From a virus, in the IMG/VR virus record IMGVR_UViG_3300042544_003254, positions 1-34,398 of that record: DNA of 34,398 bases; one strand, 5' to 3'. Position 1 is the first letter of the stretch. Each line of letters begins with the position of its first letter. The position numbers and the translations under genes are program-made. The notes beneath the pieces are model-generated. The model did not search any database. It saw only the letters and a program-made list of their open reading frames with translations, and had not been told where the DNA came from. Below are positions 298 to 34,143 of the stretch, piece after piece.

Positions 298-1208
298 GAA
301 CAATCTTTCATATAACAGGAGGACTAGGTAAGCATGTAGCTGCTACTAGTGTTATCAATTCATATAAGCATGAAAATAAAGACGATGATATTATTGTATG
401 TAGCGCGTATCCTGGAGTATTTGAACGCAATGAAGGTGTAAGTGAGAGTAGAGACCTCAACAGTCTCGAGTATTTCTATAGAGATTATATCTCAGGCAGG
501 ACAGATACAAAAATCTTCGCTCAGGATCCGTACAGACAGCAAGATCATATTTTTAAGAGATTGCACCTTATTAAAACCTGGTGCAATCTTGTTGGTACAA
601 AGCAATACAAGAGTTCATCACTTAATTTTAATTTTAGAGAGGTAGAAATTGCAGGTAAACGATTTTTAGGTAATCAGAAACCACTTTGCGTCTTTCAGCC
701 ATTCGGAGGTAGCGTTCATACGCTACCGTATAACTGGGCTAGAGATATTCACCCTAATATTGCTCAGTCAATAGTGAATATGTTAGTACAGAAAGGTTAT
801 CATGTATTACATGTGTGTAATCAGTATCACCCTGTACTCGAGAACTGCGAGAGATTAGATGAACGTTGCACAGTAGGTACTTTAGCAGCTATCATACACT
901 TATCAACCGAACGTATTCTTATCGATTCTTCTTTACAGCATATTGCTGCTGCAATTGGTAAGCCATCGAAAGTAATATGGAATGTTACATCTCCTACATT
1001 ATTCGGTTACGATATGCATGCAAATATTCTTCCTAAAGCTGATTACTCTAAAGGTCATAGAAAATCATATTTGTATGATTTCGAAATCGGTGGTATTCCT
1101 GCTGAGTGTCCATTCGACAAATATACTCAAATGTTTGATGAAGAAGCAATTTACTATGCAGTTCTCTCAGACCCTCTCGATTCAAGTAATATATACAACA
1201 AAGCATAA
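294..1208 (+). CDS. GT9/heptosyltransferase-like glycosyltransferase
   Basis: A protein of 304 residues beginning MRTIFHITGGLGKHVAATSV, that is, an N-terminal strand then a GGLG loop as in the first Rossmann domain of GT-B enzymes. The second half has FQPFGGS (around residue 140), a helix, a YHVLHVC strand, and then LIDSSLQHIAAAIGKPSKVIW, which matches the C-terminal donor-binding domain of ADP-heptose:LPS heptosyltransferases (family 9), where a D-S/T-x-x-x-H-x-A-A-A-x-GKP motif is diagnostic. It overlaps the GT25-like gene by 4 nt and forms a two-gene glycosylation unit with it. The donor and acceptor cannot be inferred. Its stop codon TAA (1206-1208) lies inside the octamer driving the next gene. 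Confidence 0.65.
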   Translation: MRTIFHITGGLGKHVAATSVINSYKHENKDDDIIVCSAYPGVFERNEGVSESRDLNSLEYFYRDYISGRTDTKIFAQDPYRQQDHIFKRLHLIKTWCNLVGTKQYKSSSLNFNFREVEIAGKRFLGNQKPLCVFQPFGGSVHTLPYNWARDIHPNIAQSIVNMLVQKGYHVLHVCNQYHPVLENCERLDERCTVGTLAAIIHLSTERILIDSSLQHIAAAIGKPSKVIWNVTSPTLFGYDMHANILPKADYSKGHRKSYLYDFEIGGIPAECPFDKYTQMFDEEAIYYAVLSDPLDSSNIYNKA

Positions 1209-1211
1209 ATA
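1204..1211 (+). promoter_or_regulatory. T4-type late promoter octamer CATAAATA
   Basis: CATAAATA (one mismatch to TATAAATA), 6 nt before the ATG at 1218. It contains the TAA stop of the upstream gene. The transcript would start at or 1 nt before the start codon if T4 geometry holds. Confidence 0.6.
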
Positions 1212-1217
1212 TCATAT

Positions 1218-1577
1218 ATGTCAATCTTAACTGATAACAAAATTCCTGCCGCGCCGACTGTAACACCTGAAATGAGACAACAGAGACTCAAAGCTGTTGC
1301 TAATATAATTGTGAATACGACATGTGAAACATTTAATGATTTAGTTAGTGTACAGCGTAGAGGCATTGATCTTGTATGGGCGGATGATAGCTTTACTCCT
1401 CAGGAAATCCTAAACGAGCTTGGAGATAGAGCACCAGCTATCTTTGCAATGCACAGAGAACTATCAGAGTTTATTACAGATGTTGCTGCTGCTAATAATG
1501 TTAAAGTTGATCTTAAGCAACCTACTCATAACTTTACTCTATCAGGCAACAGTATTATTGTAGGAGATAAGCTTTAA
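1218..1577 (+). CDS. Hypothetical protein, 119 residues
   Basis: I do not recognise a family. The protein starts MSILTDNKIPAAPTVTPEM, has a mostly helical central part (residues 20-95) and a short beta-rich C-terminus (HNFTLSGNSIIVGDKL). There is no signal peptide or membrane segment. The start is supported by the CATAAATA octamer 6 nt upstream. The gene ends in a TTAA tetranucleotide that also supplies the stop of the convergent gp14-like gene. Its own late promoter and its place beside neck and terminase genes suggest a late, perhaps virion, protein; this is inference only. Confidence 0.6.
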   Translation: MSILTDNKIPAAPTVTPEMRQQRLKAVANIIVNTTCETFNDLVSVQRRGIDLVWADDSFTPQEILNELGDRAPAIFAMHRELSEFITDVAAANNVKVDLKQPTHNFTLSGNSIIVGDKL

Positions 1578-2518: not shown

Positions 2519-2519
2519 A

Positions 2520-2858
2520 TTACTTATTTAGTGTAGACACTTTGCCATACTGTACACCATCATCACCTGTATACATTTGAACGGTGGATGAAGAGTTACC
2601 AAGGTGTTTTGTTTTACCTGGAGCGAAATCGATCTTATATGATTGTAGTAACTTAATGAGCTGCGGGCCAGATACAACACCATTAGGTATAGTGTGCTTT
2701 GGTATATATTCTTTTCTTACTGTGCCTGGATTCTTTCTCATATGCACTCTATCAAACGACTTACCATTTGGTCCAGACTTTAACGACACTAAACGACTTT
2801 GTAGTGCGTTTTCTTTCTTTGCATATTCTGTTAAAAAGTACTCCTTGAAGGTAGTCAT
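2520..2858 (-). CDS. Small basic protein with capsid-targeting-like N-terminus
   Basis: A protein of 112 residues. Its N-terminus MTTFKEYFLTEYA closely resembles the capsid-targeting sequence of T4 internal proteins (MKTYQEFIAEA as I remember it): M-x-T-aromatic-x-E-aromatic, then a hydrophobic residue, x, E. L9-T10-E11 fits the L/I-x-E consensus cut by the T4 prohead protease gp21. The rest is Lys-rich with a C-terminal beta-type segment and no family I recognise. Inference: a protein packaged in the prohead and trimmed during maturation. The start is set by a perfect TATAAATA 5 nt upstream, directly behind a terminator. The next gene starts 2 nt after its stop. Confidence 0.6.
   Translation of the reverse strand: MTTFKEYFLTEYAKKENALQSRLVSLKSGPNGKSFDRVHMRKNPGTVRKEYIPKHTIPNGVVSGPQLIKLLQSYKIDFAPGKTKHLGNSSSTVQMYTGDDGVQYGKVSTLNK
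2525..2532 (-). promoter_or_regulatory. Late-promoter-like octamer ACTAAATA (minus strand)
   Basis: On the minus strand ACTAAATA stands 6 nt before the ATG at 2518. It lies inside the last codons of the upstream gene (T-L-N-K-stop). Two mismatches to TATAAATA, so moderate support, but the spacing is the same as at the clear sites. Confidence 0.45.
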
Positions 2859-2863
2859 ACTGT

Positions 2864-2871
2864 TATTTATA
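2864..2871 (-). promoter_or_regulatory. T4-type late promoter TATAAATA (minus strand)
   Basis: Perfect TATAAATA on the minus strand, spacer ACAGT, then the ATG at 2858. With T4 geometry +1 is the A of the start codon. It begins one base after the T-run of the preceding terminator, an arrangement repeated at 9081-9088 on the plus strand. Confidence 0.75.
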
Positions 2872-2872
2872 C

Positions 2873-2903
2873 AAAAACGGGCTTAGTCTTTCAACTAAGC
2901 CCG
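2873..2903 (-). terminator. Rho-independent terminator after the scaffold-like gene
   Basis: Read on the minus strand: a perfect 10-bp stem (CGGGCTTAGT / ACTAAGCCCG, 2878-2903) with a 6-nt loop, followed by a run of five T (2877-2873). It lies 27 nt downstream of the stop of the gene ending at 2931 and immediately before the next promoter. Confidence 0.85.
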
Positions 2904-2930
2904 CTCTCAATTCCTTGTCTTAATTAAGAA

Positions 2931-3818: not shown

Positions 3819-3821
3819 AAG

Positions 3822-3829
3822 TATATTTA
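3822..3829 (+). promoter_or_regulatory. Weak late-promoter-like octamer TATATTTA for the large terminase gene
   Basis: TATATTTA (two mismatches) 6 nt before the ATG at 3836. It overlaps the minus-strand octamer almost completely. The match is weak, but the spacing is right and no other room for a promoter exists in the 17-bp gap. Confidence 0.4.
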
Positions 3830-3831
3830 TA
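3824..3831 (-). promoter_or_regulatory. T4-type late promoter TATAAATA for the scaffold-like gene
   Basis: Perfect octamer on the minus strand, spacer TACTT (5 nt), ATG at 3818. It overlaps the plus-strand octamer for the terminase gene within a 17-bp intergenic region. Confidence 0.75.
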
Positions 3832-3835
3832 CTAT

Positions 3836-5536
3836 ATGGCCAAAAAGTCAGATAAAACAGAATACTATCTAGGAAATCCTAACCTACCAGCAGCTAACAC
3901 GGTACTTGAGTACGAACCATGGATGATAAAAGAGCTCAGAAAAGCTAGAGAAAACATTCTCTACTTTGCTGAAAACTTCTTCTTTATTATTAATCTAGAT
4001 AGGGGTCGTGAGAAGATTAAATTGCATTCGTGTCAGAAGAGAGCTATACGCAAGATGAGAGACAATAGATTCTTCATCTTGTTAGCATCAAGACAGATTG
4101 GTAAATCAACGATGATGACAATCTATGTTTTATGGCAAGCATGCTTTAATGACGACCAGCGTATTCTACTTGTAGCTAACAAAGAGGCTACTGCGATAGA
4201 AATCTTTCAACGTGTACGATTAGCGTTTGAAGAATTACCAGTGTGGCTAAAGCCAGGTGTTAAAGAATATGGTAAGACATCGATGACACTAGATAATGGT
4301 AGTAGAATAGGTATATCAACTACAACAGGGTCAGCAGCGAGGGGTCAATCCGTGAACGTTGTTGTTATTGACGAGATGGGTCACATTGAGCCTCACTTGA
4401 TGGATGAGTTCTGGAAATCTGTTTTTCCTATTATTTCATCATCGAAAAAATCTAAGATATTCGTGTGCTCTACGGCTAATGGTACAGATAACTTGTTTTA
4501 TAAATTGTATGATGGTGCTGAGAAGGAAGAAAATGGATGGGCTCATGATAAGATTCTATGGCATGAAGTACCAGGTCGAGATGAGAAGTGGGCAGAGACA
4601 ACAAGAAAAACTCTTGGTTCATCAGAAGACTGGTTGCAGGAGTTTGAGTGTCAATTCCTATCTACTGGTGAATCATCTATCGACCAAGAGCTATTCCTTG
4701 ATATGTCACAGAGATGTACGCCTGCGCCTATTATATTAGATGAAGGCAATTACAAACTCTGGGAAGAGCCGAATCCAGAAAAAGTATATGTTGCAGGTGT
4801 CGATATATCTGAAGGAGTCGGTCTTGATGCTAGTGTCATTCAGATATTTGACATAACAGATCTTAGAGATATTACACAAGTAGCAGTGTATCATAATAGG
4901 CATATACCACCTCTCGAATTCTCTAATAAGCTTCATACTATTCTCAAAAACTGGGGGTCGCCTCTTGCTCTCATCGAGCGAAACAATTGCGGAGCTCAAG
5001 TTGTTGATAGACTTGCTTTTGATCTTGGATATACAAAGGTTGTATCATATGGAGCTAAAGTAGCTGGTAGAGCTAAGCCACAGATGGGTATGATAGCTCA
5101 TACTAATACAAAGGGTGCTGGTGTACGTAACATGAGGTACTTTGTAAACGAGCTAAGAACTGTAACATTCCGCGATATCGATACACTCAAGGAATTTAAG
5201 GACTTTGTCAGACACCCTAATGGTATATGGAAGGCTAAATCAGGATATAATGATGATAGAGTTATGTCATGCTTATGGGCACTGTTTGTTCTTGAAAAAG
5301 AAATAACCGAAAGATACTTTGACATTGTTGAAGTTGATGAACACGGTAAACCTGCTATGATTACTCCTATTGATTATGGTGTGGCTCTTTTTGAAGACCC
5401 TACTTCAATTTATAACGATTTTGAAGTAATTGGAGAAAATAACGCATTCTTATCACCTGTTGTATTCGGTATGGGAGATTCTGAGCAATTAGCCGAAATT
5501 GAATGGTTACAACAAGAGGGATGGATGTCACTATAA
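3836..5536 (+). CDS. terL: Terminase large subunit (T4 gp17 type)
   Basis: The DNA-packaging motor: an N-terminal ATPase drives DNA into the prohead and a C-terminal RNase H-like nuclease cuts the concatemer. Of 566 residues, the Walker A is SRQIGKST (85-92), the Walker B VVVIDE (175-180) and the coupling motif STANG (212-216). The nuclease domain opens with VAGVDISEG (catalytic Asp 323), with a further Asp at ~332 and IERNNCGAQV downstream. This is close to the length of T4 gp17 (610). The N-terminal helical block and SCQKRAIRKM before the adenine-binding region fit the family. It is divergent from the scaffold-like gene by only 17 bp. Its stop codon (5534-5536) lies in the promoter octamer of the next gene. 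The small subunit is not adjacent; a candidate is 11 kb downstream. Confidence 0.97.
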   Translation: MAKKSDKTEYYLGNPNLPAANTVLEYEPWMIKELRKARENILYFAENFFFIINLDRGREKIKLHSCQKRAIRKMRDNRFFILLASRQIGKSTMMTIYVLWQACFNDDQRILLVANKEATAIEIFQRVRLAFEELPVWLKPGVKEYGKTSMTLDNGSRIGISTTTGSAARGQSVNVVVIDEMGHIEPHLMDEFWKSVFPIISSSKKSKIFVCSTANGTDNLFYKLYDGAEKEENGWAHDKILWHEVPGRDEKWAETTRKTLGSSEDWLQEFECQFLSTGESSIDQELFLDMSQRCTPAPIILDEGNYKLWEEPNPEKVYVAGVDISEGVGLDASVIQIFDITDLRDITQVAVYHNRHIPPLEFSNKLHTILKNWGSPLALIERNNCGAQVVDRLAFDLGYTKVVSYGAKVAGRAKPQMGMIAHTNTKGAGVRNMRYFVNELRTVTFRDIDTLKEFKDFVRHPNGIWKAKSGYNDDRVMSCLWALFVLEKEITERYFDIVEVDEHGKPAMITPIDYGVALFEDPTSIYNDFEVIGENNAFLSPVVFGMGDSEQLAEIEWLQQEGWMSL

Positions 5537-5539
5537 ATA
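5532..5539 (+). promoter_or_regulatory. T4-type late promoter TATAAATA
   Basis: Perfect octamer, spacer ATAGCA (6 nt), ATG at 5546. The TAA at 5534-5536 is the terminase stop codon. Confidence 0.75.
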
Positions 5540-5545
5540 ATAGCA

Positions 5546-6127: not shown

Positions 6128-6146
6128 CAAAAAAAATCTGAAGACG

Positions 6147-6154
6147 TATAAATA
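6147..6154 (+). promoter_or_regulatory. T4-type late promoter TATAAATA for the sheath gene
   Basis: Perfect octamer, spacer ATCATAT (7 nt), ATG at 6162. Predicted leader of about 2 nt. Confidence 0.75.
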
Positions 6155-6161
6155 ATCATAT

Positions 6162-8462
6162 ATGTCAACAAGAACAATTTTGTCACCAGGTGTGGAAGTT
6201 CGCGAGCGCGATTTATCACTCGTAGCTCCAAACAATGTTGGAACAACAGTATTCGTAACAGGCTTTGCAAATCAAGGTCCATCAGATGAAGTGCTTAAGA
6301 TCACAACACGTGATGAACTTGAGCTAATCTACGGTACTCCTACTAACTCAGCAGAAAGATACTTCTATCACACAGTGAGAGAGCTTCTTAACTCTCCAGC
6401 AAACATTTATACATCAAGATTGCCATATGGCCTTGGAAGTGGTAGCGGATTTACAACAAAGTATTCCGCTCTTGTATATCCAGTTTCTACTGTTACATCT
6501 TCTACTAGTGCTACATCCAATACGCTTAACGTTTCTGCAGGTACATATGTCTTAGGTTCACCTACACACATGGAACTTACTGACACACAGTATCAGTCAA
6601 TTATTGAAGGATCTGCGTTTACATGGTCTGCTTCTGCTAGCACATCTTTTAGCACTCTTGGCGACCTTGGAAAAGCTGGTGTCGTTGTTCTCAATAAATC
6701 ACAAACAGCGATTAACGATCAGTTCGAAGGTTACTATATCGGTATTGGTGATAACTTCAATCTTAACCCTGGTACGGCATTTAATAGTATTACAGGTGTT
6801 AACACACTCAACTCGAGCTTAACTTCTACAGCAACATACATTCCTGTTCCAACTGGTACACTTCAGTTCCAACTTACTGCAGCAGTTAATGGTGCTTCGA
6901 ACAGTATTTCGCAAGTGATGGAGAATCTTACTGATTATCAACCAAGCGAAACTCAAGATGCTGATTTACTTAATATCGGTGTGTTTAAGCTTCGTAAATC
7001 GCTTTTCTCAACTGAAGCATTCAAGCTTGATTATGTTCTCGACGAAAAAGTAGTTGGTTCGATTGATTATTTCAAAACTATCAATGACGAAAAAGGCGGT
7101 CCTGCTATTAGTTATTTCCTAGAAAGCACTGATGAAAACTCACGTAACACTACAGTTCTTGTTAATGATTTTATCTCTAACAGACTTAGTACATCTTCGA
7201 TTGGTGTAGATGGTGTTCCGCTTAAGAAGGTTCGCGTGTTAACTAAGTCTCTTATCGATAACAATAATCAAACAACTTCAGGCGTATCGACAAGTACACT
7301 TAACTCGCTTGTTGCTACTCTAGGTTTTGCTGATAACCTTTACCCTCTAGGTGCTTATACAGGTGTTGCAGCTAATACAAAAGATCTTGGAGATATTCCA
7401 ACTAAGCTTGACCGTGCACTTGATTCGGTTCGCAACGACGATATCTATGAATTAGATCTTGTTGTTGAAGCTGGTCTAGGTACAATTTACGCTGCTGCTT
7501 CTGGTGCTCAAACTGCATACTACGACGAGACTAACTATAACAGCAATCTATCAACTCAAGTATCTGGTCTAAGAACAACAGGTACGCCGAGCAACGATGG
7601 TGTTACACTTCGTAACAACTACATGACAATCTTTAACAAGTTTGCAAACTTCTGCTCACCTGGTTATATCGGCGGTGGTCGTGGTGACTGTATGTTTGTT
7701 GCTGACCCACTACGTCATATCTTCGTAACTGGTACAAACAACAAGATTGCAGCTAATAAGAATTCAATCTATCAAAGAGACATTTACTGGGCACTTAGAC
7801 ACTTGTTCAGCACAGCTAATACATCATATGCTGCTGCTTATGCAAACTGGTCGAAAGTATATGATTCATACTCTGGCCAACAAGTATGGGCTCCATTCTC
7901 TGGTTTTGCTGCTGCAGCAATAGCTAGAAACGACGCTGCTAGATATCCATGGATTGCACCTGCTGGTTTCACAAATGGTCTTGTAACAAATGCTCTTGAG
8001 CTTGCTTCAACACCAAATCAGAAACAACGTGATGAGCTTTACAAAGTAAATCTTAACCCAGTAACATTCTTCCCTGCTCAGGGCAATGTTATCTACGGTC
8101 AAAAGACACTTAGCCGTAAGCCTAGTGCATTTGACAGAATTAATGTTCGTAGATTGTTCTTAGCTCTCGAAAGACCTTCTAAGAAACTATCACAGTTCTT
8201 CGTATTTGAACCAAACACAACATTTACTCGTACGCGACTTGTTAATGCTCTTGTACCTATCTTTGATAGAGCTAAGAACACAGAAGGGGTATATGATTAC
8301 TTGATTGTGTGCGATGAAAGAAACAATACACCACAAGTTATTGATAATAACGAACTGGTAGTTGACTTCTACATCAAGCCTGTACGCGCAAGTGAGTTTA
8401 TTCTTCTTAACTTTGTCGCAACTAGAACTGATACCAACTTCCGTGAAATTATCGGTGGCTAA
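6162..8462 (+). CDS. gp18: Tail sheath protein (T4 gp18 type)
   Basis: The contractile sheath subunit that surrounds the tail tube and drives injection. The N-terminus has the family signature LSPGVEVRERDLS (residues 7-19), followed by GTTVFVTGFANQGPSDEV and an ERYFYHTVRELLNSPA helix. The C-terminal third carries the conserved assembly domain: PWIAPAGFTNGLV, LNPVTFFPAQGNVIYGQKTL, RINVRRLFLALER, and FEPNTTFTRTRLVN, then a final ISEF-like strand ending REIIGG. At 766 residues it is about 100 longer than T4 gp18 (659), the extra probably in the surface-exposed middle domains. Followed directly by the tube gene, as in T4. Confidence 0.97.
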   Translation: MSTRTILSPGVEVRERDLSLVAPNNVGTTVFVTGFANQGPSDEVLKITTRDELELIYGTPTNSAERYFYHTVRELLNSPANIYTSRLPYGLGSGSGFTTKYSALVYPVSTVTSSTSATSNTLNVSAGTYVLGSPTHMELTDTQYQSIIEGSAFTWSASASTSFSTLGDLGKAGVVVLNKSQTAINDQFEGYYIGIGDNFNLNPGTAFNSITGVNTLNSSLTSTATYIPVPTGTLQFQLTAAVNGASNSISQVMENLTDYQPSETQDADLLNIGVFKLRKSLFSTEAFKLDYVLDEKVVGSIDYFKTINDEKGGPAISYFLESTDENSRNTTVLVNDFISNRLSTSSIGVDGVPLKKVRVLTKSLIDNNNQTTSGVSTSTLNSLVATLGFADNLYPLGAYTGVAANTKDLGDIPTKLDRALDSVRNDDIYELDLVVEAGLGTIYAAASGAQTAYYDETNYNSNLSTQVSGLRTTGTPSNDGVTLRNNYMTIFNKFANFCSPGYIGGGRGDCMFVADPLRHIFVTGTNNKIAANKNSIYQRDIYWALRHLFSTANTSYAAAYANWSKVYDSYSGQQVWAPFSGFAAAAIARNDAARYPWIAPAGFTNGLVTNALELASTPNQKQRDELYKVNLNPVTFFPAQGNVIYGQKTLSRKPSAFDRINVRRLFLALERPSKKLSQFFVFEPNTTFTRTRLVNALVPIFDRAKNTEGVYDYLIVCDERNNTPQVIDNNELVVDFYIKPVRASEFILLNFVATRTDTNFREIIGG

Positions 8463-8473
8463 TCTAACTAACT

Positions 8474-8481
8474 CATAAATA
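8474..8481 (+). promoter_or_regulatory. T4-type late promoter CATAAATA for the tail tube gene
   Basis: CATAAATA (one mismatch), spacer ATAATAT (7 nt), ATG at 8489. Confidence 0.65.
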
Positions 8482-9028: not shown

Positions 9029-9048
9029 TCTAATAAGCACTAATATTC

Positions 9049-9079
9049 AAAGCGCTACGGTTTACGTAGCGCTTTTTTT
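9049..9079 (+). terminator. Rho-independent terminator after the tail tube gene
   Basis: A perfect 11-bp stem (AAAGCGCTACG / CGTAGCGCTTT) with a 5-nt loop, followed by a T-run up to 9079. Located 21 nt after the tube stop codon and one base before the next TATAAATA. Confidence 0.92.
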
Positions 9080-9080: not shown

Positions 9081-9088
9081 TATAAATA
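9081..9088 (+). promoter_or_regulatory. T4-type late promoter TATAAATA
   Basis: Perfect octamer, spacer ACTGT (5 nt), ATG at 9094; predicted +1 is the A of the start codon. The block from the terminator T-run to the start codon is nearly identical to the minus-strand site at 2858-2877. Confidence 0.8.
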
Positions 9089-9764: not shown

Positions 9765-10532
9765 ATGTTCACTATACATCTACCTATATCAAAAAAGCCG
9801 TTTACTGTTAAACCATTCTTGTTTAACAATGTAATAGATATTGCAAGACTCTCTTATGAAAATGATGATGAGAGTCTGTTTAAGTATCTTATTGATCATT
9901 TCGAGATAGAACCTCTCTGTATTGTAGATAAATTTTTTGTATTGTTAAAAGCTCGTCAGTTATGGCTTAGTGAGAAAGTTCGTATAAAAGATAACGATAA
10001 GTATATCGATTTAAATATGTCAAACTTATTCAAATGCTTTGACGGCGTAAGTCGTGTAGACAAAACTATTACAGATGGATTGCTTTCTATAACATTCACA
10101 CTTCCAAGGACATTAATAAGAGATAGTAATGATGATACATTTATAGAAACAATTAAGACTATAGATATACAAGATAATGTTATTTGCTTTGATACTCTAC
10201 CAAAGTCTGATCAACTGTCTATAGTATCTAAATTGCCTCCATCAACGTTTAAACTAGTAAGAGAGTTCTACAAGAGTATTCAATGGGAATACGTGTTATT
10301 CGAGTCACCAAAAAGAAATATACGCATCTCAATTGATTTTCTTACATCAGAACCATACGAGTTAATAAAAAATCTGTACAGTATATACGATCTACATTAC
10401 TGTAGAGAGGTACTACTGTACCTTTCAAAGCGAATCAGTTCTGATATACTTTATAAATCTACAATGTCGGATATTGAATATTATGTAGATGAAATCTATA
10501 GTACAGATAGCCATTCGTCTCAAACAATATAA
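9765..10532 (+). CDS. gp26/gp51-like baseplate hub assembly protein A
   Basis: A protein of 255 residues. The N-terminus FTIHLPISKKPFTVKPFLFNN resembles the LPS-x-GK-x-x-x-x-x-Pf opening of the T4 gp26-type baseplate hub/chaperone family. The remainder is helical with repeated Asp/Glu and Leu and no membrane segment. It starts 2 nt after the previous stop with no octamer, so it is probably translated from the upstream mRNA by coupling. It shares the opening motif and general composition with the next gene, so the two look like diverged paralogues. In other contractile tails such pairs act as chaperones for the tape measure or hub. Moderate certainty. Confidence 0.45.
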   Translation: MFTIHLPISKKPFTVKPFLFNNVIDIARLSYENDDESLFKYLIDHFEIEPLCIVDKFFVLLKARQLWLSEKVRIKDNDKYIDLNMSNLFKCFDGVSRVDKTITDGLLSITFTLPRTLIRDSNDDTFIETIKTIDIQDNVICFDTLPKSDQLSIVSKLPPSTFKLVREFYKSIQWEYVLFESPKRNIRISIDFLTSEPYELIKNLYSIYDLHYCREVLLYLSKRISSDILYKSTMSDIEYYVDEIYSTDSHSSQTI

Positions 10533-10535
10533 ATA
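10528..10535 (+). promoter_or_regulatory. T4-type late promoter TATAAATA
   Basis: Perfect octamer, spacer GTCTGT (6 nt), ATG at 10542. The TAA at 10530-10532 is the stop of the upstream gene. Confidence 0.75.
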
Positions 10536-10541
10536 GTCTGT

Positions 10542-11237
10542 ATGGTAGATCTCCAATCGTTTCTTGATAAAGTCGCAACACTTACTCCTCCAGCAGCCTC
10601 TGTCAAACTTCCTTCATCAGGCAAAGAAGTAAATATAACTCCTCTGAACATAATCCAACAAAAAAAACTTTTAACAGAAGGCGTTACAGATGAGTATGAG
10701 TTAATAGGTTTCACAAAGACTCTTAATGAGATAATTACTGAAGAAGTTTCAGACGCTCGCTTATGTGACAGAGCATACCTCGCAATTAAATTACGTAATA
10801 TATCTATAGATAATTACTTTGGTGATGTTGACTTATCTGAACTAACATCAGACTCGAAATGGACTAACGGTGTCGAACTTATTAAAGATGTTAAGACTGG
10901 TAACCTATCAATCTCCATTGAGATGCCATATCTTAAAGATGAAATTGTCTTACTTGATTACCTGAAAGCTAATCTAACAAGAGATGAAGAGTATAACACT
11001 CGTCTCATTTATTCAGTGGAGGTACTCAAATATATTAAGTCACTAACTATAGATGATACAGTATTAGTATTGAGCGACCTTACTATAGCTGATAGACTTG
11101 AGCTATTTGATAAGCTACCTATCATGTGTACTAAGGGAGTAGTAAGTTATATTGAGGAATTTAAAGAAAATGAGCTCAGTCTGTTAACTGTAGATGAACG
11201 TGTATTGGTTATTGATCGCGAATTCTTTAGCGTATAA
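10542..11237 (+). CDS. gp26-like baseplate hub assembly protein B
   Basis: A protein of 231 residues. Residues 20-45 read VKLPSSGKEVNITPLNIIQQ then KKLL, the signature opening of the T4 gp26-like family (LPS-x-GK, a Pro, then a charged-LL helix). Then come a DARLCDRAYLAIKLRN helix, in which the D-x-x-YL-x-x-x-x-R pattern is also family-typical, and IEMPYLKDEIVLLDYL. In T4, gp26 and gp51 assist hub assembly without being major virion parts. The next gene is the tape-measure candidate, which fits a chaperone role. Own octamer 6 nt before the ATG. Confidence 0.6.
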   Translation: MVDLQSFLDKVATLTPPAASVKLPSSGKEVNITPLNIIQQKKLLTEGVTDEYELIGFTKTLNEIITEEVSDARLCDRAYLAIKLRNISIDNYFGDVDLSELTSDSKWTNGVELIKDVKTGNLSISIEMPYLKDEIVLLDYLKANLTRDEEYNTRLIYSVEVLKYIKSLTIDDTVLVLSDLTIADRLELFDKLPIMCTKGVVSYIEEFKENELSLLTVDERVLVIDREFFSV

Positions 11238-11243
11238 TAAATA
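11236..11243 (+). promoter_or_regulatory. Late promoter octamer AATAAATA for the tape-measure candidate
   Basis: AATAAATA (one mismatch), 5 nt before a GTG start at 11249. It overlaps the stop codon of the upstream gene (11235-11237). Confidence 0.6.
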
Positions 11244-11248: not shown

Positions 11249-13084
11249 GTGAATAAAGACACATCTAATGTCAAAACACTAGCTGAAATCGTTCAATTCT
11301 TTACTACACGGTTAGAAGGATTAAGTGATAGTACTCAACCTCAGGATAGTAGCTCAAAACAGTTAGCAGAAAAAAATGTTATACCTGGACCAGGTTCTAC
11401 CCTTGGGATAGGTGAGAGATCTGTCAATCCACGGTTAAGCAGTAATGAACGATCAAGGGTTTATGAAATAGGTACTATCTTAGCAAAAGCTCAGTATAAT
11501 TTCAATCTAACAAAGAAAGTTGATAAAAAGGAGAAGGCGTTAATACGTCAATCAGAATTTGGTATGCCTGGAAAACAATCGTTTTCAGGTACTAGAGTTA
11601 AGGGTAAAAAAGATAGTGATTCTGAAGATGGAGGTGGATTACTTGACAGTATTATGGGTATTAAAGATACTTTTGATTCTTTAAAAGATACTTTTGATTC
11701 TGCGAAGGATGGGGTTAAGAAAGCAAAGCGAGGAGTAAGACGTCTAAGAAGAGCACCAAGATCGCTTCCACGCTTAGCAAGAAGAAAACTAAGTAAAATA
11801 CGTTTGCCTAAGATATTTTCAAGAGCACCAAAGGTATCTGTACCAAAAGTACCTAAAGTATCTGTACCTAAAGTAGCAGTGCCGAAAGTGCCAAAGGTAT
11901 CTGTACCTACTGTACCAAAGGTACCTACAGTAATTCCAAAAGTTGCTACAAAAGCTGGTTCAATAGGAAGTAAGGTTCTAGATGTAGGTTCTAAGGTATC
12001 AACTGCTACAAAAGGCGTAGGTGGCGCAGGAAAAGCTACAGCTGCTTTAGGTACTATAGGTACGGCTGTTGGATCTATAGCGCCTGCGTTAGGTAAGGTA
12101 GGCTCTGCAGTCGGAACTGTCGGTAAAGTGGCAGGAAAGGTTGTGGCTCCATTAGCACTAGCTATCGATGGAGTTACCGCAGTAACAAAACTATCAACAG
12201 AAGCAGGTAGAGAGAATTTAAGAGCAACAGCTGAATCACTTGATTACCAAAAAGATTTTTTCGGCACTTTAGGAAAAGCAGTTCTATCTCCGCTTGAGAC
12301 CAGCTCAGCTATTGGTCTTGCAACTTATGATCTTATCGAGTCGTCAAGAGCTGCTGCTAAATCAGAAGCTAATTTAAAGGTAGCTGAAGAGAAATCTCAA
12401 GAGAAGACTGCGAAGTATGATACTGATAAGACTGGTAAAATAGATACACTAGAAGAAAAACTCAAGTTATGGAACTCTGCTGATTCTGGTCCTTCAAAAA
12501 TGAAGTTTTATAACGATAAAACTGGTAAGAAGTGGAGATATGATAAGCAAGCAGATACATTCACTTCATTAGAGGGTAATATGCAAATGAGCTCTAAGGA
12601 TTTTGTCAGACGTGAAACTCAAAAAGAGGGCGCTAAAACAGATAATAAAGAGCAAGCTCCTCAGCCTTCAACACCTACTATTACTGACCCTCAGCTTACA
12701 ACCCCACCACCAGCTTTTGTACCTGAACAGCCAAAAGCATTAGGTATAGCGAGAGCAGCAGGCGACATTGTTACAAAAGAGGCGGGTTTGAAAGCAAAGG
12801 AAGCAGAAAAAATAGCTACAAGCGGTGCAAAAGAACAATCACAGAATGCATCGATTGACCTAACAAGTCAGAACAATCTTATAGTTCAACAGACTCAGAT
12901 ACTATCTGAGTTGCTTAAAACGTCAAAAATGCAATTGGGCATTGTAGAAAAGGCTAAGCCAACTGTAATTAATAATACATCTGGAGGTTCGACTAATGTA
13001 TCATCAAGTAATAAGTTTGATACTGGAACTGAAACAAGTAGAAGTATGTATGGTTCATCACCTTATACCCTATCTCCTGTCTAA
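11249..13084 (+). CDS. Tape-measure / baseplate hub candidate with PKV repeats
   Basis: A protein of 611 residues from a GTG start; the ATG at 11247 is followed at once by TGA, and the octamer spacing selects the GTG. It has a charged N-terminal third, a very basic stretch (residues ~155-190: RRLRRAPRSLPRLARRKL), then about ten PKV/PTV units (193-233). A Gly/Ala/Val-rich hydrophobic block follows (about 245-312, GSAVGTVGKVAGKVVAPLAL), then helical and Gln/Ser-rich C-terminal parts. The length is close to T4 gp29 (590), the tape measure. The hydrophobic Gly/Ala block is common in tape measures that later enter the host membrane. Its position after two chaperone-like genes and before a tube-initiator candidate agrees. 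I saw no lysozyme motif. Confidence 0.5.
   Translation: MNKDTSNVKTLAEIVQFFTTRLEGLSDSTQPQDSSSKQLAEKNVIPGPGSTLGIGERSVNPRLSSNERSRVYEIGTILAKAQYNFNLTKKVDKKEKALIRQSEFGMPGKQSFSGTRVKGKKDSDSEDGGGLLDSIMGIKDTFDSLKDTFDSAKDGVKKAKRGVRRLRRAPRSLPRLARRKLSKIRLPKIFSRAPKVSVPKVPKVSVPKVAVPKVPKVSVPTVPKVPTVIPKVATKAGSIGSKVLDVGSKVSTATKGVGGAGKATAALGTIGTAVGSIAPALGKVGSAVGTVGKVAGKVVAPLALAIDGVTAVTKLSTEAGRENLRATAESLDYQKDFFGTLGKAVLSPLETSSAIGLATYDLIESSRAAAKSEANLKVAEEKSQEKTAKYDTDKTGKIDTLEEKLKLWNSADSGPSKMKFYNDKTGKKWRYDKQADTFTSLEGNMQMSSKDFVRRETQKEGAKTDNKEQAPQPSTPTITDPQLTTPPPAFVPEQPKALGIARAAGDIVTKEAGLKAKEAEKIATSGAKEQSQNASIDLTSQNNLIVQQTQILSELLKTSKMQLGIVEKAKPTVINNTSGGSTNVSSSNKFDTGTETSRSMYGSSPYTLSPV
11827..11945 (+). repeat. Tandem PKV/SVPKV coding repeat
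   Basis: Short degenerate units of the type CCAAAGGTATCTGTA encode PKVSVPKVPKV and variants, residues ~193-233 of the tape-measure candidate. A Pro every 3-6 residues should give a stiff extended segment. Confidence 0.75.
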
Positions 13085-13087
13085 ATA
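13080..13087 (+). promoter_or_regulatory. Late promoter octamer TCTAAATA
   Basis: TCTAAATA (one mismatch), spacer TTATT (5 nt), GTG start at 13093. Contains the stop TAA (13082-13084) of the upstream gene. Confidence 0.6.
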
Positions 13088-13886: not shown

Positions 13887-13894
13887 TAAAAATA
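13887..13894 (+). promoter_or_regulatory. Late promoter octamer TAAAAATA
   Basis: TAAAAATA (one mismatch), spacer ATATT (5 nt), ATG at 13900. Confidence 0.5.
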
Positions 13895-17032: not shown

Positions 17033-17043
17033 GAAATTACTTA

Positions 17044-17071
17044 TTGATTTTTATGTATTTAGTCATATAAT
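17044..17071 (+). promoter_or_regulatory. Sigma70-like promoter for dut
   Basis: TTGATT (17044-17049), 16-bp spacer, TATAAT (17066-17071). A start about 7 nt downstream would coincide with the ATG at 17078. No late octamer fits this gene, so it is probably expressed earlier than its neighbours. The -35 overlaps the weak octamer of the divergent gene. Confidence 0.5.
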
Positions 17072-17077
17072 CATGAC

Positions 17078-18525: not shown

Positions 18526-18533
18526 CATAAATA
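18526..18533 (+). promoter_or_regulatory. Late promoter octamer CATAAATA before the homing endonuclease
   Basis: CATAAATA (one mismatch). It is 3 nt from the first ATG (18537) and 6 nt from the second (18540). By the spacing seen elsewhere, the second ATG is the likelier start. Confidence 0.6.
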
Positions 18534-19951: not shown

Positions 19952-19959
19952 TATTTATT
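19952..19959 (-). promoter_or_regulatory. Late promoter octamer AATAAATA (minus strand)
   Basis: AATAAATA on the minus strand, 8 nt before the ATG at 19943. Slightly longer spacing than at the other sites. Confidence 0.5.
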
Positions 19960-20526: not shown

Positions 20527-20534
20527 TATTTATG
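20527..20534 (-). promoter_or_regulatory. Late promoter octamer CATAAATA (minus strand)
   Basis: CATAAATA on the minus strand, spacer TTCTT (5 nt), ATG at 20521. This decides the start of that gene. Confidence 0.65.
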
Positions 20535-20540: not shown

Positions 20541-20548
20541 GATAAATA
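20541..20548 (+). promoter_or_regulatory. Late promoter octamer GATAAATA
   Basis: GATAAATA (one mismatch), spacer AATGT (5 nt), ATG at 20554. Divergent from the minus-strand octamer 6 bp away. The ATG at 20550 is in another frame and closes within five codons. Confidence 0.65.
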
Positions 20549-20553: not shown

Positions 20554-20838
20554 ATGGAATTTGACAAACTTGTAGAAGAGCTACTAACTGAAGCATCCAA
20601 GGGCTCGAGATGTACACGCACTACAAAAAAAGCATCGTCTCCTCTTAAAAGTAAGAAGTATACAAAGTGTGTTAAAAATCCTAGCGGTGAAGGGTACAAG
20701 AGAATTCATTGGGGCGATCCTAATATGAGAGTCAAAAAGTCTAATCCAAAGAGACGTAAATCGTTTAGAGCAAGACACAAATGCTCAAGTGCAAAACCAG
20801 GTACACCAAAACACGCTGCTTGCAAGGATTGGCAATAA
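20554..20838 (+). CDS. Small very basic Cys/His-containing phage protein
   Basis: The octamer spacing selects the ATG at 20554 (94 residues) rather than a GTG at 20539 that overlaps the promoter. About 26 of 94 residues are Lys or Arg. The N-terminus MEFDKLVEELLTEASKG has L6-V-E8 and L11-T-E13, so cleavage after E13 would leave a strongly cationic protein. The C-terminal half holds YKRIHWGDPNMRVKK, RRKSFRARHKC (to C77) and KPGTPKHAACKDW (to C90), a conserved block I recall from small phage proteins, with C77/H87/C90 as possible metal ligands. Inference: DNA-binding internal head protein. The stop TAA lies in the octamer of the gp25 gene. Confidence 0.65.
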   Translation: MEFDKLVEELLTEASKGSRCTRTTKKASSPLKSKKYTKCVKNPSGEGYKRIHWGDPNMRVKKSNPKRRKSFRARHKCSSAKPGTPKHAACKDWQ

Positions 20839-20841
20839 ATA
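20834..20841 (+). promoter_or_regulatory. Late promoter octamer AATAAATA for the gp25 gene
   Basis: AATAAATA (one mismatch), spacer TTTGA (5 nt), GTG start at 20847. The upstream stop TAA (20836-20838) is inside it. Confidence 0.65.
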
Positions 20842-23155: not shown

Positions 23156-25373
23156 TATTAACACAACTGAGTACTACGATTTTAATGTTAAAGATTATAC
23201 AGGAAGTGTAACATCACTTTCATCTTATAATCTAGACTGCACTCCTGTGCAGTTTGTACCTGTAATATCCTCAACTGTAACAGGGTTTACACGGCTTATA
23301 TGGTCTACAGGTGATGGAACGTTCGTAGAGGAGTATTCTCCGCGACACATCTACAAAAAACCCGGGAGATATACTGTATCTTTAATGGTGTACTCGACAA
23401 ACAACGAAGTAATACGTTCAAGTATATCAAAAAGCATTTTAATTAAAGATTATATTGAAGATAACTTTAATATCGAGTGCTCATCACTAGCACTTACTGC
23501 AGGATGTCTTAGTCCTGCGTTATCTGTTACTCAGACACTACCAATACGACTGTTTAACAGACGTACAGTAACTGCTCCTGTTAAAAGCAGTCAGTCTTTT
23601 GAGTTTATACCTAAAAGTCTTCAGAAGACAAAGATAACCATCCCTATCGATCAACCTTCACCCTCTGTTACTGTATTAGAACCTACAGCTGAAGAGTTAA
23701 AGAGAGTTTCAACTATTAGATATACACTAAGCGGTGCAAAATCAGTAAATTATTTCAATTTACCTGATAATCTATACAATCATCTTGAAATATACAACAG
23801 TCTGTTTACACGAACATACGTAGATTCTATATCTTCGTATGATATTCAACAGGTTTCAAATATACAATTGCCTCTTACAGCAGTATATGTCAAGCTAGAT
23901 GGATCTCAACTTACACAATCATATGAATACAGTAGTGAAAAAGAACTTGTCGGGTATAGAGGAACAGGTATTGTCTTTTATAGGGATGATGCGCCTACAG
24001 AGTTGTTCAACATCTCCTTTGATAGATATAATGATAATACATCTAATACGCTTAATGTAACACTATCGGGTAGCGTAGCAGCTAATACACCTACAAAGGT
24101 TGTAATAACATCTAATGGTATTACAGGTGATGGTTACCCGAATAGTATCTTTAATATTGATAAGAATAAGTTTGTAGATACTAATATTCACTTTGTTGCG
24201 TGTTTAACAGATTCTGTTGGTAATAAAGTCAAAAACTATGAACCTCTAGCTTATCCAGATAACATTACTTTTAACCTTGTCGGAAACAACGTTCAAACTG
24301 GTAGCTATTCAATCAGTAGCTTGCAGTCAACACTGTCTTCACTATCAGGCGGAGGTTATTTTAGAGGTTACCTTACATATACAGGTACACTATCAAGTCC
24401 GCTTACAAGTGTTTATCTAAGTGCTGCGTATGTCGATACTATTAACACAGAGTTAGACGAGTTTATAACAACTGAATCACTAGTTACTCTAACAACAGAA
24501 GCAGATCCTGTTAGTGCGAACTCGAACACTTTCAATATTTATCCACTTAACTACTACAAGCTTGTTAAGCTCAATGAAGACTATGACTTCGAGCAAATGT
24601 TCAAGAGTCTGATATTCCAAGAAACCTTAATGGATAAACCTATGCTATTCGAGGAGTTCTTAGGAACAATCTTCGGAAACGATAGTGTAGATGTCGAAGC
24701 ACTTGGTAATAAGTTGTATGAACGTATTAGTAATTTTATTAACAACAATACAAATATTAGTACTGCAGAAGTGATAAATCTCATGTCATATGCAGATTTA
24801 ATGTCAAACAATTCTGTTATGTTTGATAAAAACCTTCTCAACTTCCCTAACAAGATTCAACGTATTGTAAATCTTCTCTCAGTTAATAGAGATAAGCTTT
24901 TCGGCACAACCAACAAGTTTAACGAAAACTTTAGTGATTTCGGGTATACAACAAAAGATGTATATGGCAAAAACCTAGGAGATAAGATTGATACAACTAC
25001 TTATACAATAACTGCCGGTACAGATATTGTAGCATATGAGAAATTTAGTAAGATATACAAACTGTTAAACACATATCAGCCTTTGTGTGCTTCAACTCCT
25101 ACTGCATCTTCGTATAAGCTATCTAGCTATAACCCTAACTGGGGATGGCCTCTTGTTTTGCCACAAGATACATCATTGCAGTCGATTAACACATACTACG
25201 ACTTCTATGAGTTTGATTCACAGATAGCGGGTAATATTGTTGGTGGAGTTCTCAACTTTACACATACAACTGTTCCTTTTGATATTGATAATACTCTGTT
25301 ATTAGACAAGTCTGGTATCTACGAAAATATCATTTCAGATACACTGTATCAGTCACTGTCGCTTACTAAATAA
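23148..25373 (+). CDS. Large PKD-domain baseplate/tail protein A
   Basis: A protein of 741 residues. A PKD-type Ig-like domain occupies about residues 33-100: RLIWSTGDGTFVEEYSPRHI, then YKKPGRYTVSLMVYS. The middle is beta-rich with Ser/Thr-rich strands. The last ~250 residues are helical (for example FEQMFKSLIFQETLMDKPML) and end in a compact block with YNPNWGWPLVLP and YYDFYEFD. In T4 the genes after gp6 are gp7 and gp8; this gene holds that place but I cannot show homology. Probable baseplate wedge or periphery protein. The start overlaps the gp6 stop by 8 nt. The stop TAA overlaps an octamer placed for the following gene. Confidence 0.6.
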   Translation: MSNINTTEYYDFNVKDYTGSVTSLSSYNLDCTPVQFVPVISSTVTGFTRLIWSTGDGTFVEEYSPRHIYKKPGRYTVSLMVYSTNNEVIRSSISKSILIKDYIEDNFNIECSSLALTAGCLSPALSVTQTLPIRLFNRRTVTAPVKSSQSFEFIPKSLQKTKITIPIDQPSPSVTVLEPTAEELKRVSTIRYTLSGAKSVNYFNLPDNLYNHLEIYNSLFTRTYVDSISSYDIQQVSNIQLPLTAVYVKLDGSQLTQSYEYSSEKELVGYRGTGIVFYRDDAPTELFNISFDRYNDNTSNTLNVTLSGSVAANTPTKVVITSNGITGDGYPNSIFNIDKNKFVDTNIHFVACLTDSVGNKVKNYEPLAYPDNITFNLVGNNVQTGSYSISSLQSTLSSLSGGGYFRGYLTYTGTLSSPLTSVYLSAAYVDTINTELDEFITTESLVTLTTEADPVSANSNTFNIYPLNYYKLVKLNEDYDFEQMFKSLIFQETLMDKPMLFEEFLGTIFGNDSVDVEALGNKLYERISNFINNNTNISTAEVINLMSYADLMSNNSVMFDKNLLNFPNKIQRIVNLLSVNRDKLFGTTNKFNENFSDFGYTTKDVYGKNLGDKIDTTTYTITAGTDIVAYEKFSKIYKLLNTYQPLCASTPTASSYKLSSYNPNWGWPLVLPQDTSLQSINTYYDFYEFDSQIAGNIVGGVLNFTHTTVPFDIDNTLLLDKSGIYENIISDTLYQSLSLTK
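25365..25372 (+). promoter_or_regulatory. Late-promoter-like octamer ACTAAATA
   Basis: ACTAAATA (two mismatches), abutting the ATG at 25373 but 6 nt from the ATG at 25379. The same octamer and spacing occur at 2525-2532. Supports 25379 as start. Confidence 0.45.
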
Positions 25374-27700: not shown

Positions 27701-27708
27701 GATAAATA
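27701..27708 (+). promoter_or_regulatory. Late promoter octamer GATAAATA
   Basis: GATAAATA (one mismatch), spacer CATTTAG (7 nt), ATG at 27716. It lies in one of the few true intergenic gaps (30 nt). Confidence 0.65.
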
Positions 27709-27715
27709 CATTTAG

Positions 27716-31396: not shown

Positions 31397-31899
31397 CAAC
31401 ACAAACAATAAATCTATCTTCTAACAGCGCATCCACTCTGGTTGTTTCGCCAACAGCATACATGTACGATACAACCACCCTGGTTCTCGATACACAGTTT
31501 GTGTCTGCTGACAAGCCTCTATTATCTATTACAGTTAATTGGGGTGATGGTACTGATAATGAGTTTTACGCCAATGATTTCTTCTCAGATCAGCTAAATG
31601 TTGTAAACGAAATATCATTCGGGTATGACTATACAGTTATAAAGCCATATTCACACGAATACTCACCGTCTAGCGTAGCGTTAACACGTATTTTATCAGC
31701 GCAACTACTTGTAAATTACTTTGATAACACATCGTGCAGATTTCTTGTACCTATTAACATTACTAACCCTTCGTTAATAAACAAAGCAGGTGATTTGAAT
31801 GTGCTCAGTGTTAATAATCTAAGTTTATCTGGTGATTACATGATATCTCTTCATACTGCGAATGAAGGGTTTGTTATTGATACAGTTTTAAGTGTGTAG
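31393..31899 (+). CDS. Small PKD-like protein C
   Basis: A protein of 168 residues that looks like a single PKD-like domain: SITVNWGDGTDNEF (46-59), KPYSHEYSPSS, then QLLVNYFDNTSCRFLVPINI and two short strands. ATG overlaps the upstream TGA (ATGA), so it is translationally coupled to the giant PKD gene. It may be a separate subunit of the same assembly, or a domain split off from it. No signal peptide. Confidence 0.6.
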   Translation: MTTQTINLSSNSASTLVVSPTAYMYDTTTLVLDTQFVSADKPLLSITVNWGDGTDNEFYANDFFSDQLNVVNEISFGYDYTVIKPYSHEYSPSSVALTRILSAQLLVNYFDNTSCRFLVPINITNPSLINKAGDLNVLSVNNLSLSGDYMISLHTANEGFVIDTVLSV

Positions 31900-31906
31900 A
31901 GCTAAA

Positions 31907-31914
31907 TATACATA
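31907..31914 (+). promoter_or_regulatory. Late promoter octamer TATACATA
   Basis: TATACATA (one mismatch), spacer TACTGT (6 nt), ATG at 31921. A second candidate, GCTAAATA at 31901, is 12 nt from the ATG and fits worse. Confidence 0.5.
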
Positions 31915-31920
31915 TACTGT

Positions 31921-34143
31921 ATGTCTACCTATGTATCAATAAGTGCTTCTTCAATAAAATCTGAAGAACTTAAGACTACCATCCCTGGAGCAGAATTTAA
32001 GCAGAGTAATATACTGTTCGGAAGCGGTGTAGCTATTTGCTTTGCTAATGCATTGTCTGGTGTAACAGATATTCATGCAAAAAACTACTCGAACTTCTAT
32101 CTAACTAACAATACTCAGCTAGGTCAGATATTATCTGAGGTAAAGTCAGATATTAAGCCTACTAAAATAACTACAACCCTTCAACAGGGTACAAACAATT
32201 TTGTAAGTGTTGCACAAGGCGAAACGGATCTTTTAAAGTATATTGATACTAAATTAGGGTTATTTTTCTCTCAGGAAATACAAGATGTAAATAATCAATT
32301 TACTATCGATTTGATAGACAATAAATATTGCACTGTTTCGTATGATGACAACACTTCTACAAGGTATATTGTTGTTGATAACGGTGATTGCAAACTCAAG
32401 CGTGCACCTTTAATTGTATCTAATGAGCATTATTTCAGATACATTCTAAATGGTAATAATTTAGTTTTATTGTATGATAACTCAGGCAATACTTCTATTA
32501 TTACAAGTAATGCGGGTAAATTATCTGCAGTCAACTTCACTCAACATGTGTTTAACAATATATTAGAAAATGCTTTTACTATTAGTACAAAAGTAGGTAC
32601 AGAGTTACCAGATTTTATCGATCAGCAATACATTAGTTACTCGCTATCAGGTCTTAACATTTCAGCAGACGATAGAATTTCTAACCTCAACAACAATTAC
32701 TTGTTATCTAGAAATCATAATAACAGTAACTTGTATGATATCATGCTACTAAAGAACCAAACCAGTGAGGTTGGTGAAGTTGGTGTGTTTAATACACTTG
32801 GGCTAGCAAATGACAATACAGCTGCTAATTATAGAACATATACATCCTTAAACCGCAACATAGATCAGTTAGAAGACACAACACTTTCACTGAACTATGT
32901 GTGTTATAACCAATCATTTGTTATAGTTCCAGGAATTAACAGATTTACAACAAGTGATACACTGTTTCCATTTAGTGTTCTTAATGTTAATGATACAACA
33001 TTTATTGCAAATGGTGCCTTCGGCTCATCTACTCCTAAGTATGCTGATAAAGTATACAAAGAACAGATAAACAATATTGGAGAGAGTGCGACCTATCTAT
33101 GTACATGGCTTTCTTATAACCAGACTACAGATACATGCACATGGCTTGACAGATATTATTATCCTAATCTCACTACAAAGGAGCAGACACTAACAGCGTC
33201 AATCTACAATAATACATTTGAGAGTTATGTTGAAAAACTTATTAATTCGAACTTAGGTCTCAAGACTAATGTTGCTGAAACACAATATTTTGATAAATTA
33301 AGTGATTTTGCCTTCGAGCCTTCTGCATCATATGTGTATGATCGCATAGATATTGATAATATTGATTTCTTTACATCAAAAAATAGTGTAGACACATCGA
33401 TAAATGGCTATTATCCGCAAATTAATAGAAATAATGGCTTTACTTTAGGATTTTATATTAATCAATATGCTGGAACTGACTTTATAACATTGTATAGTAA
33501 GTTCAACTCTATTGAAGGTGGATTAAAGGTAGAATACAATAACGACACTATCATAATAACTGTAACATTCTATAATTCTGTAGCTAGCGACGCTTCTGTA
33601 GCTAGCAGCGATTTAAAAACGAGGTATAACCCCTTTACTAAAACTATTAGCTTGCCTGCTAGATCAAAAAACAGTGTTGTGTGTCATGTTGACAACAATA
33701 TAGGCGAGGTTAAAGTATTCCTAAACGAAGACAATGTAATAAATGAAGTCATTGAACCGCTTACCTATAATGTAATTGTGTATGGCGACTTCGTTGTAAA
33801 TGATCAACCGCTTAAAGAAAGCTCTAACTACTTATCAGATGTGTTTTTGAGTCTGGCTCCGCTTACATCAGAAGAACTTGAGTTACTTGTAACAAAATAC
33901 AACACTATTTACAATACATATTCAATATCACTTCCGTGTGGTATGAGAAATAGAACAGATAATGTTAAACATATTAATATTCTCGAGTCTTCGAACTTTA
34001 GTAAGTCTAATACATTCGATGTCTTCTTGAATGGATTAGAAGTCTCTAACAGCGACCGCGACGAACTCATACAAACCATAAAGGCGGAGTTAGTTGATGT
34101 AATGCCTCTAAACGCAACAATAAATACTATCGAAATATTGTGA
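31921..34143 (+). CDS. Tail fibre / adhesin candidate with LamG-like domain
   Basis: A protein of 740 residues starting MSTYVSISASSIKSEELKTT. The N-terminal 250 residues are mixed beta, and the middle is rich in Asn/Thr/Tyr. About residues 500-660 resemble a LamG/concanavalin-like jelly roll: NGFTLGFYINQY, DFITLYSKF, GGLKVEYNNDTIIITVTFY, VVCHVDNNIGEVKVFLNED, then LSDVFLSLAPLTSEELELL. Such domains bind carbohydrate, so a receptor-binding or fibre role is plausible. The C-terminal 90 residues form a separate small domain. Probably late-expressed from its own octamer. The next gene overlaps its stop (GTGA). Confidence 0.55.
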   Translation: MSTYVSISASSIKSEELKTTIPGAEFKQSNILFGSGVAICFANALSGVTDIHAKNYSNFYLTNNTQLGQILSEVKSDIKPTKITTTLQQGTNNFVSVAQGETDLLKYIDTKLGLFFSQEIQDVNNQFTIDLIDNKYCTVSYDDNTSTRYIVVDNGDCKLKRAPLIVSNEHYFRYILNGNNLVLLYDNSGNTSIITSNAGKLSAVNFTQHVFNNILENAFTISTKVGTELPDFIDQQYISYSLSGLNISADDRISNLNNNYLLSRNHNNSNLYDIMLLKNQTSEVGEVGVFNTLGLANDNTAANYRTYTSLNRNIDQLEDTTLSLNYVCYNQSFVIVPGINRFTTSDTLFPFSVLNVNDTTFIANGAFGSSTPKYADKVYKEQINNIGESATYLCTWLSYNQTTDTCTWLDRYYYPNLTTKEQTLTASIYNNTFESYVEKLINSNLGLKTNVAETQYFDKLSDFAFEPSASYVYDRIDIDNIDFFTSKNSVDTSINGYYPQINRNNGFTLGFYINQYAGTDFITLYSKFNSIEGGLKVEYNNDTIIITVTFYNSVASDASVASSDLKTRYNPFTKTISLPARSKNSVVCHVDNNIGEVKVFLNEDNVINEVIEPLTYNVIVYGDFVVNDQPLKESSNYLSDVFLSLAPLTSEELELLVTKYNTIYNTYSISLPCGMRNRTDNVKHINILESSNFSKSNTFDVFLNGLEVSNSDRDELIQTIKAELVDVMPLNATINTIEIL

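Follow-up and report, generated by a model that had tools for sequence, protein, structure and literature searches.

The stretch of DNA analyzed here (the window) is a 34.4-kb piece (34,398 nucleotides) of an uncultured myovirus of the T4 superfamily, corresponding to IMG/VR record IMGVR_UViG_3300042544_003254. Many of its genes are preceded by an octamer equal or similar to TATAAATA, the late promoter motif of phage T4, that ends 5 to 8 nucleotides before the start codon, with no Shine-Dalgarno (SD) sequence. We estimate at about 0.86 the probability that these octamers are T4-type late promoters whose mRNAs would start at the start codon or 1 to 3 nucleotides before it, leaving no SD-containing leader. 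The evidence consists of the motif, its spacing, its conservation, the absence of SD sequences, the gene for the late sigma factor gp55 in relatives, and the initiator and terminator context; from these we infer the 5' ends, the use of gp55 at the octamers, and the mode of translation.

Open reading frames (ORFs) were defined by a simple longest-ORF rule, selecting the in-frame start with the minimal spacer, i.e., the number of nucleotides between the end of the octamer and the start codon; cultured phages were treated likewise. A match was defined as identity to TATAAATA in at least 7 of the 8 positions. Such octamers were present at a spacer of 5 to 8 in 17 of the 32 window genes (spacer 5, nine genes; spacer 6, four; spacer 7, three; spacer 8, one), as compared to 0.89 expected and a maximum of 5 in 2,000 Markov simulations of the upstream regions. 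The other 4-nucleotide spacer windows, from 9 to 28, contained 0 to 2 matches in the same genes. Over the entire window, exact copies of the octamer are not overrepresented (8 versus 5.9 expected); six of the eight are found at spacers of 5 to 7, so that the enrichment is positional. The position of the octamers before the window start codons is strongly nonrandom, which is the outcome against chance that the first-pass annotation of this DNA had asked for. That annotation had listed 20 sites on both strands, all of which were retrieved with the spacers given, but it missed one, the octamer CATAAATA at spacer 6 of the GIY-YIG-like homing endonuclease gene (18540-19412). The octamers of 2518-, 3836, and 25379 match in only 6 of the 8 positions, and the 3836 octamer overlaps with that of the divergent gene next to it. 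None of the 32 genes has an SD sequence of at least 4 nucleotides. A -10 element 5 to 8 nucleotides before the start codon combined with the lack of an SD sequence, as found here, is a leaderless-type layout.

The same arrangement was observed in large uncultured relatives of up to 207 kb, the closest large one being G001; these relatives are not independent samples, and p-values calculated across them are therefore somewhat optimistic. A hexamer scan of six large relatives showed that TAAATA at spacer 5 to 6 stands out from all other hexamers, with 25 observed versus 0.37 expected cases in G001, 53 versus 0.57 in G004, 45 versus 0.49 in G003, 49 versus 0.50 in G002, and 18 versus 0.30 in G008, whereas the signal in G006 was weaker and more spread. 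An identical scan of T4 placed TAAATA at spacer 27 to 28 and an AGGA-type SD sequence at 4 to 7. In accordance with the earlier statement that most T4 late genes possess real leaders, their identically measured spacers are mostly 24 to 35. Ten cultured T4-superfamily phages had most of their gene-near late-region sites in the 21-to-35 bin and 0 to 3 in the 5-to-8 bin, and the late-region spacers of S-SM1 were mostly 23 to 43. The conservation of the 5- to 7-nucleotide spacing, proposed as a check, was observed both in the large relatives and in orthologs, which retain octamer and spacing despite divergence of the surrounding DNA; among the orthologs of gene 9094, the octamer shifts along with the start codon. 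SD sequences of at least 4 nucleotides precede 5 to 12% of the genes in six relatives, which is close to shuffled sequence, as compared to 25 to 70% in cultured phages, and they are lacking in the clade even for genes without an octamer.

The first base of the T4 late octamer is at position -13 (PMC2988020), so that its last base is at -6, five bases before +1; the placement of +1 about 6 nucleotides after the octamer in the first-pass annotation was thus correct. It follows that +1 falls on the start codon at a spacer of 5 and that spacers of 6 to 8 leave 1 to 3 nucleotides; the latter genes are predicted to be near-leaderless, with leaders of this length. The 5' ends suggested earlier, at the start codon or 1 to 3 nucleotides before it, agree with the octamer spacing and with four further sequence tests. 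Among 161 spacer-5 sites, 146 (91%) have a pyrimidine directly in front of the start codon, as compared to 317 of 524 control genes (60%; p = 1.7e-14). Of the 16 spacer-7 sites, 15 have a purine as the sixth nucleotide downstream of the octamer, as expected if +1 is fixed while the start codon moves.

An alternative that we consider improbable is that the octamers are late promoters from which initiation is shifted, or that the mRNAs stem mainly from upstream read-through, so that most ribosomes would use leadered or polycistronic messages. Dense gene packing and the many octamers that, as read from the sequence, straddle the stop codon of the preceding gene would suit this explanation. However, we found eight junctions in which a strong hairpin and a T run directly precede an octamer and its start codon, and a transcript arriving from upstream would stop there. 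Two of them are in the window, where the terminators end about 14 nucleotides before start codons 2858- and 9094 and would cut read-through. Furthermore, the relatives contain 20 divergent gene pairs with octamers at spacer 5 to 8 on both sides, most with gaps of 24 to 35 bp. In the window, the gaps of the pairs 20521-/20554 and 3818-/3836 are 32 and 17 nucleotides, respectively, and the latter pair recurs in relatives. Gaps of about 32 nucleotides could accommodate leaders only if the promoter were inside the coding sequence of the neighbor. In addition, the initiator signature is centered on the start codon.

The arrangement is not restricted to late genes. In four relatives, sigma70-type promoters (TTGA, 15- to 18-nucleotide spacing, TATAAT-like) were found 5 to 9 nucleotides before 43 start codons (9 in G001, 18 in G004, 10 in G008, and 6 in G006), and three of them precede the gp55 gene itself; five cultured phages had none at this distance before start codons in their late regions. 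The window case is the dUTPase gene, in which the promoter and the 6-nucleotide spacer before the ATG span positions 17044-17077. The leaderless arrangement thus extends, by sequence, past the late and virion genes to early sigma70-type promoters. Relative G002 presents a further element, TTAAAAACTAGNNTACAAT, which precedes 29 genes (L175-L185, mostly at 7-73 kb), all on the plus strand barring one or two exceptions; in most cases it ends about 4 to 6 nucleotides before the ATG, with no recognizable -35 element. By its position, this appears to be an unusual early promoter that is also leaderless.

These data also bear on a second alternative, namely, that the A+T-rich block is a translation signal (for instance, S1-binding or Kozak-like, in an SD-free host) rather than a promoter and that the mRNAs have ordinary leaders. 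In its favor, octamer-free genes of the clade have no SD sequences either, so that the host ribosomes must tolerate SD-free starts. Yet early genes have a different element, TTGA-N15-18-TATAAT, at equal distance, and a signal for translation would be expected in front of operon-internal genes as well, which mostly have no octamer and abut the preceding gene. Given also the terminators immediately upstream of octamers, the identity of the motif with the T4 late promoter, and the gp55 genes of relatives, we judge this possibility to be slightly less probable still than shifted initiation or read-through. A coincidence of base composition and gene packing, in which ATAAATA marks junctions of A+T-rich DNA because it contains the stop codon TAA, fits the overall frequency of the exact octamer but has a negligible chance of being correct, since the spacing is far from random, is just as narrow at divergent starts, which involve no stop codon, and is absent in similarly packed cultured phages.

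The window encodes homologues of the T4-superfamily core proteins, namely, the large terminase (3836-5536), the tail sheath (6162-8462), the tail tube, baseplate proteins of the gp53, gp25, and gp6 types, and the gp44 clamp loader, together with a dUTPase. Its terminase, gp17, shares 34 to 38% identity with those of cultured T4-like phages, and IMG/VR contains many terminase relatives with 45 to 100% identity to the window. In the gp17 tree, the window clade (35 sequences) was split from nine cultured phages with a branch support of 100/100. A gp55 homologue was detected in 11 of 14 large relatives, with that of G001 matching phrog_234, a family of late sigma factors (E = 4.6e-23). An IF3 homologue was sought in the 14 relatives, and none was found.

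Several observations weigh against initiation at the start codon from gp55-dependent promoters. The transcript 5' ends in all these phages are deduced from sequence, gp55 is not encoded within the 34-kb window, and gp45 was not detected above the cutoff in the relatives using one cyanophage query and PF02916. At spacer-6 sites, the sixth nucleotide is a purine in just 34 of 49 cases and the preceding nucleotide a pyrimidine in 22 of 49. GTG, a codon that serves poorly for leaderless initiation in Escherichia coli, is the start of three octamer genes of the window. The sister group around G006 has a looser spacing, with 15 genes at 5 to 8 and 11 at 9 to 13. Genes for ribosomal protein bS21 were found in two members of this looser-spaced group, G007 (G007:C1:4091-4225, L198) and G014 (G014:C1:18502-18642, L199); bS21 was considered as a correlate of leaderlessness, but since it is confined to these two relatives, it does not track this property.

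According to the start-codon initiation that we favor, RNA polymerase carrying a gp55-type sigma factor would read and open the octamer and initiate about 6 nucleotides after it, at the first base (A or G) of the start codon or 1 to 3 nucleotides before. Late mRNAs initiated in this way would be devoid of an SD sequence and would have to be translated by direct recognition of the 5'-terminal start codon, onto which the ribosome would load. Genes further down the transcript would be reached by translational coupling, which is probable because most of them abut or overlap the preceding gene. As noted in the first-pass annotation, this applies to nearly all window genes without an octamer (294, 9765, 14282, 17581, 21332, 23148, 31393, and 34140); the exceptions are the dUTPase gene 17078, with its sigma70-type promoter, and 17032-, with a 6-of-8 octamer. 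In G001 and G004, 64 to 65% of the promoter-free genes abut or overlap the preceding gene, as compared to 6 to 9% of the promoter genes. The original proposal of a leaderless virion gene programme is therefore supported for the octamer-led genes; it was too narrow in leaving aside the early sigma70-type promoters and does not apply to operon-internal genes. Because early genes are arranged alike, the whole lineage appears to have dropped leaders and SD sequences. We lean, with less confidence than for the late promoters, towards the wider view that the entire clade gave up SD-based initiation, each early or late transcription unit starting on a start codon, the other genes being coupled, and the -10 element positioning the ribosome start.

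Table 1. Promoter and terminator features of the window. A minus sign after a start position denotes a gene on the minus strand; sp, spacer in nucleotides.
Feature	Downstream start codon	Position	Strand	Remark
Late-type octamer CATAAATA, sp 6	ATG 1218	1204..1211	+	Conserved in L018, L038, L020
Weak octamer ACTAAATA (6/8), sp 6	ATG 2518-	2525..2532	-	
Octamer TATAAATA, sp 5	ATG 2858-	2864..2871	-	Conserved in L020, L006
Intrinsic terminator	2858-	2873..2905	-	Ends 1 nt before octamer; hairpin -21.8 kcal/mol
Octamer TATAAATA, sp 5	ATG 3818-	3824..3831	-	Within 17-nt divergent gap
Weak octamer TATATTTA (6/8), sp 6	ATG 3836 (terminase large subunit)	3822..3829	+	Overlaps divergent octamer
Octamer TATAAATA, sp 6	ATG 5546 (tail-tube-like)	5532..5539	+	
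Octamer TATAAATA, sp 7	ATG 6162 (tail sheath)	6147..6154	+	Retained in orthologs to 57% identity
Octamer CATAAATA, sp 7	ATG 8489 (tail tube)	8474..8481	+	
Intrinsic terminator	9094	9048..9079	+	Ends 1 nt before octamer; hairpin -17.7 kcal/mol; also L009, L013, L011
Octamer TATAAATA, sp 5	ATG 9094	9081..9088	+	
Octamer TATAAATA, sp 6	ATG 10542	10528..10535	+	
Octamer AATAAATA, sp 5	GTG 11249	11236..11243	+	
Octamer TCTAAATA, sp 5	GTG 13093	13080..13087	+	
Octamer TAAAAATA, sp 5	ATG 13900 (baseplate wedge subunit, gp53-like)	13887..13894	+	
Weak octamer AATAAGTA (6/8), sp 5	ATG 17032-	17038..17045	-	
Sigma70-type promoter TTGATT-N16-TATAAT, sp 6	ATG 17078 (dUTPase)	17044..17071	+	Non-octamer; leaderless by position
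Octamer CATAAATA, sp 6	ATG 18540 (GIY-YIG-like homing endonuclease)	18526..18533	+	Read from sequence
Octamer AATAAATA, sp 8	ATG 19943-	19952..19959	-	
Octamer CATAAATA, sp 5	ATG 20521-	20527..20534	-	Back to back with octamer 20541..20548; 32-nt gap
Octamer GATAAATA, sp 5	ATG 20554	20541..20548	+	
Octamer AATAAATA, sp 5	GTG 20847 (gp25-like baseplate wedge)	20834..20841	+	
Weak octamer ACTAAATA (6/8), sp 6	ATG 25379	25365..25372	+	
Octamer GATAAATA, sp 7	ATG 27716	27701..27708	+	
Octamer TATACATA (7/8), sp 6	ATG 31921	31907..31914	+	

With respect to gene content, the window segment 5546-9762 contains one sheath gene amid three tail-tube-like genes (phrog_45), and the neighboring gene pair at 9765-11237, both members of which resemble one baseplate hub family (phrog_150), is possibly a duplication. 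In G001, genes at L149 and L148 encode QueD-like, GTP cyclohydrolase, and ferredoxin-like proteins, which suggest a 7-deazaguanine DNA modification pathway. A profile search of genome contigs with the gp17 alignment, considered for host assignment, retrieved a single relative, L191, with 47% identity, in a Verrucomicrobia metagenome-assembled genome. At about 2.85 kb, the GC content of this contig rises from about 40% to 58%, with truncated reading frames at the junction, and the same genome yielded no sheath gene; the contig is probably an assembly chimera and was therefore not used as host evidence. A survey of the promoter pattern in 145 Verrucomicrobia genomes had no spacing control and was hence not interpreted.

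T4 late transcription is a textbook system in which mRNAs have SD-bearing leaders. Leaderless phage mRNAs and the use of a -10-like signal to identify leaderless genes are already known; the apparent novelty lies in a clade of the T4 superfamily whose early promoters, like its classic late octamers, are positioned such that transcripts would begin at the start codon. Our literature search, the coverage of which was incomplete, retrieved no account of T4-type phages with leaderless late mRNAs. If correct, this would show that a virus lineage can switch its entire mode of translation initiation, as a large uncultured sister lineage would use the same octamer in a leaderless manner. Leaderless start codons would then be predictable from promoters alone, and gene-start calls in environmental phages could be corrected. 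It would also raise the question of whether the phage adopts leaderless initiation from its host or brings it about by reprogramming the ribosome, as Thermus phage phiYS40 appears to do.

The closest known system is that of the T4 late promoters (gp55/gp33/gp45), which share with the window the octamer TATAAATA, the dispensable -35 element, and the location on both strands before virion genes; the gp55 homologue of the relatives and the gp44 clamp loader of the window belong to the same system. They differ in that the T4 octamer is mostly 24 to 35 nucleotides before the start, with an SD leader, as compared to 5 to 8 nucleotides and no SD sequence in the window. The NATAAATA late promoters of cyanophages (Kyanoviridae; PMC2984593) have the same motif and the same gp55 family and also belong to marine T4-superfamily phages, but their motif is mostly at least 21 nucleotides upstream, and SD use is weak to moderate (S-SM1, P-TIM68, and Bellamy). 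In phiYS40, most middle and late mRNAs are leaderless, so that a whole gene class is translated without SD sequences, and the phage appears to change initiation through a rise in IF2 and a fall in IF3 (PMC3594737). A leaderless, SD-free class of phage genes is thus common to both, whereas phiYS40 has an unrelated promoter system and a Thermus host, and its leaderless genes are middle and late, as compared to the inclusion of early genes in the window clade. Finally, in TA-led bacterial genes, a -10-like element about 10 to 12 nucleotides before the start codon has been used to infer leaderless genes (PMC3160421). The nearby -10-like element is the same sign of leaderlessness as in the window, but TA-led genes depend on cellular sigma70 and are a minority in each genome, whereas the arrangement in the window clade is phage-wide and includes a phage sigma factor.

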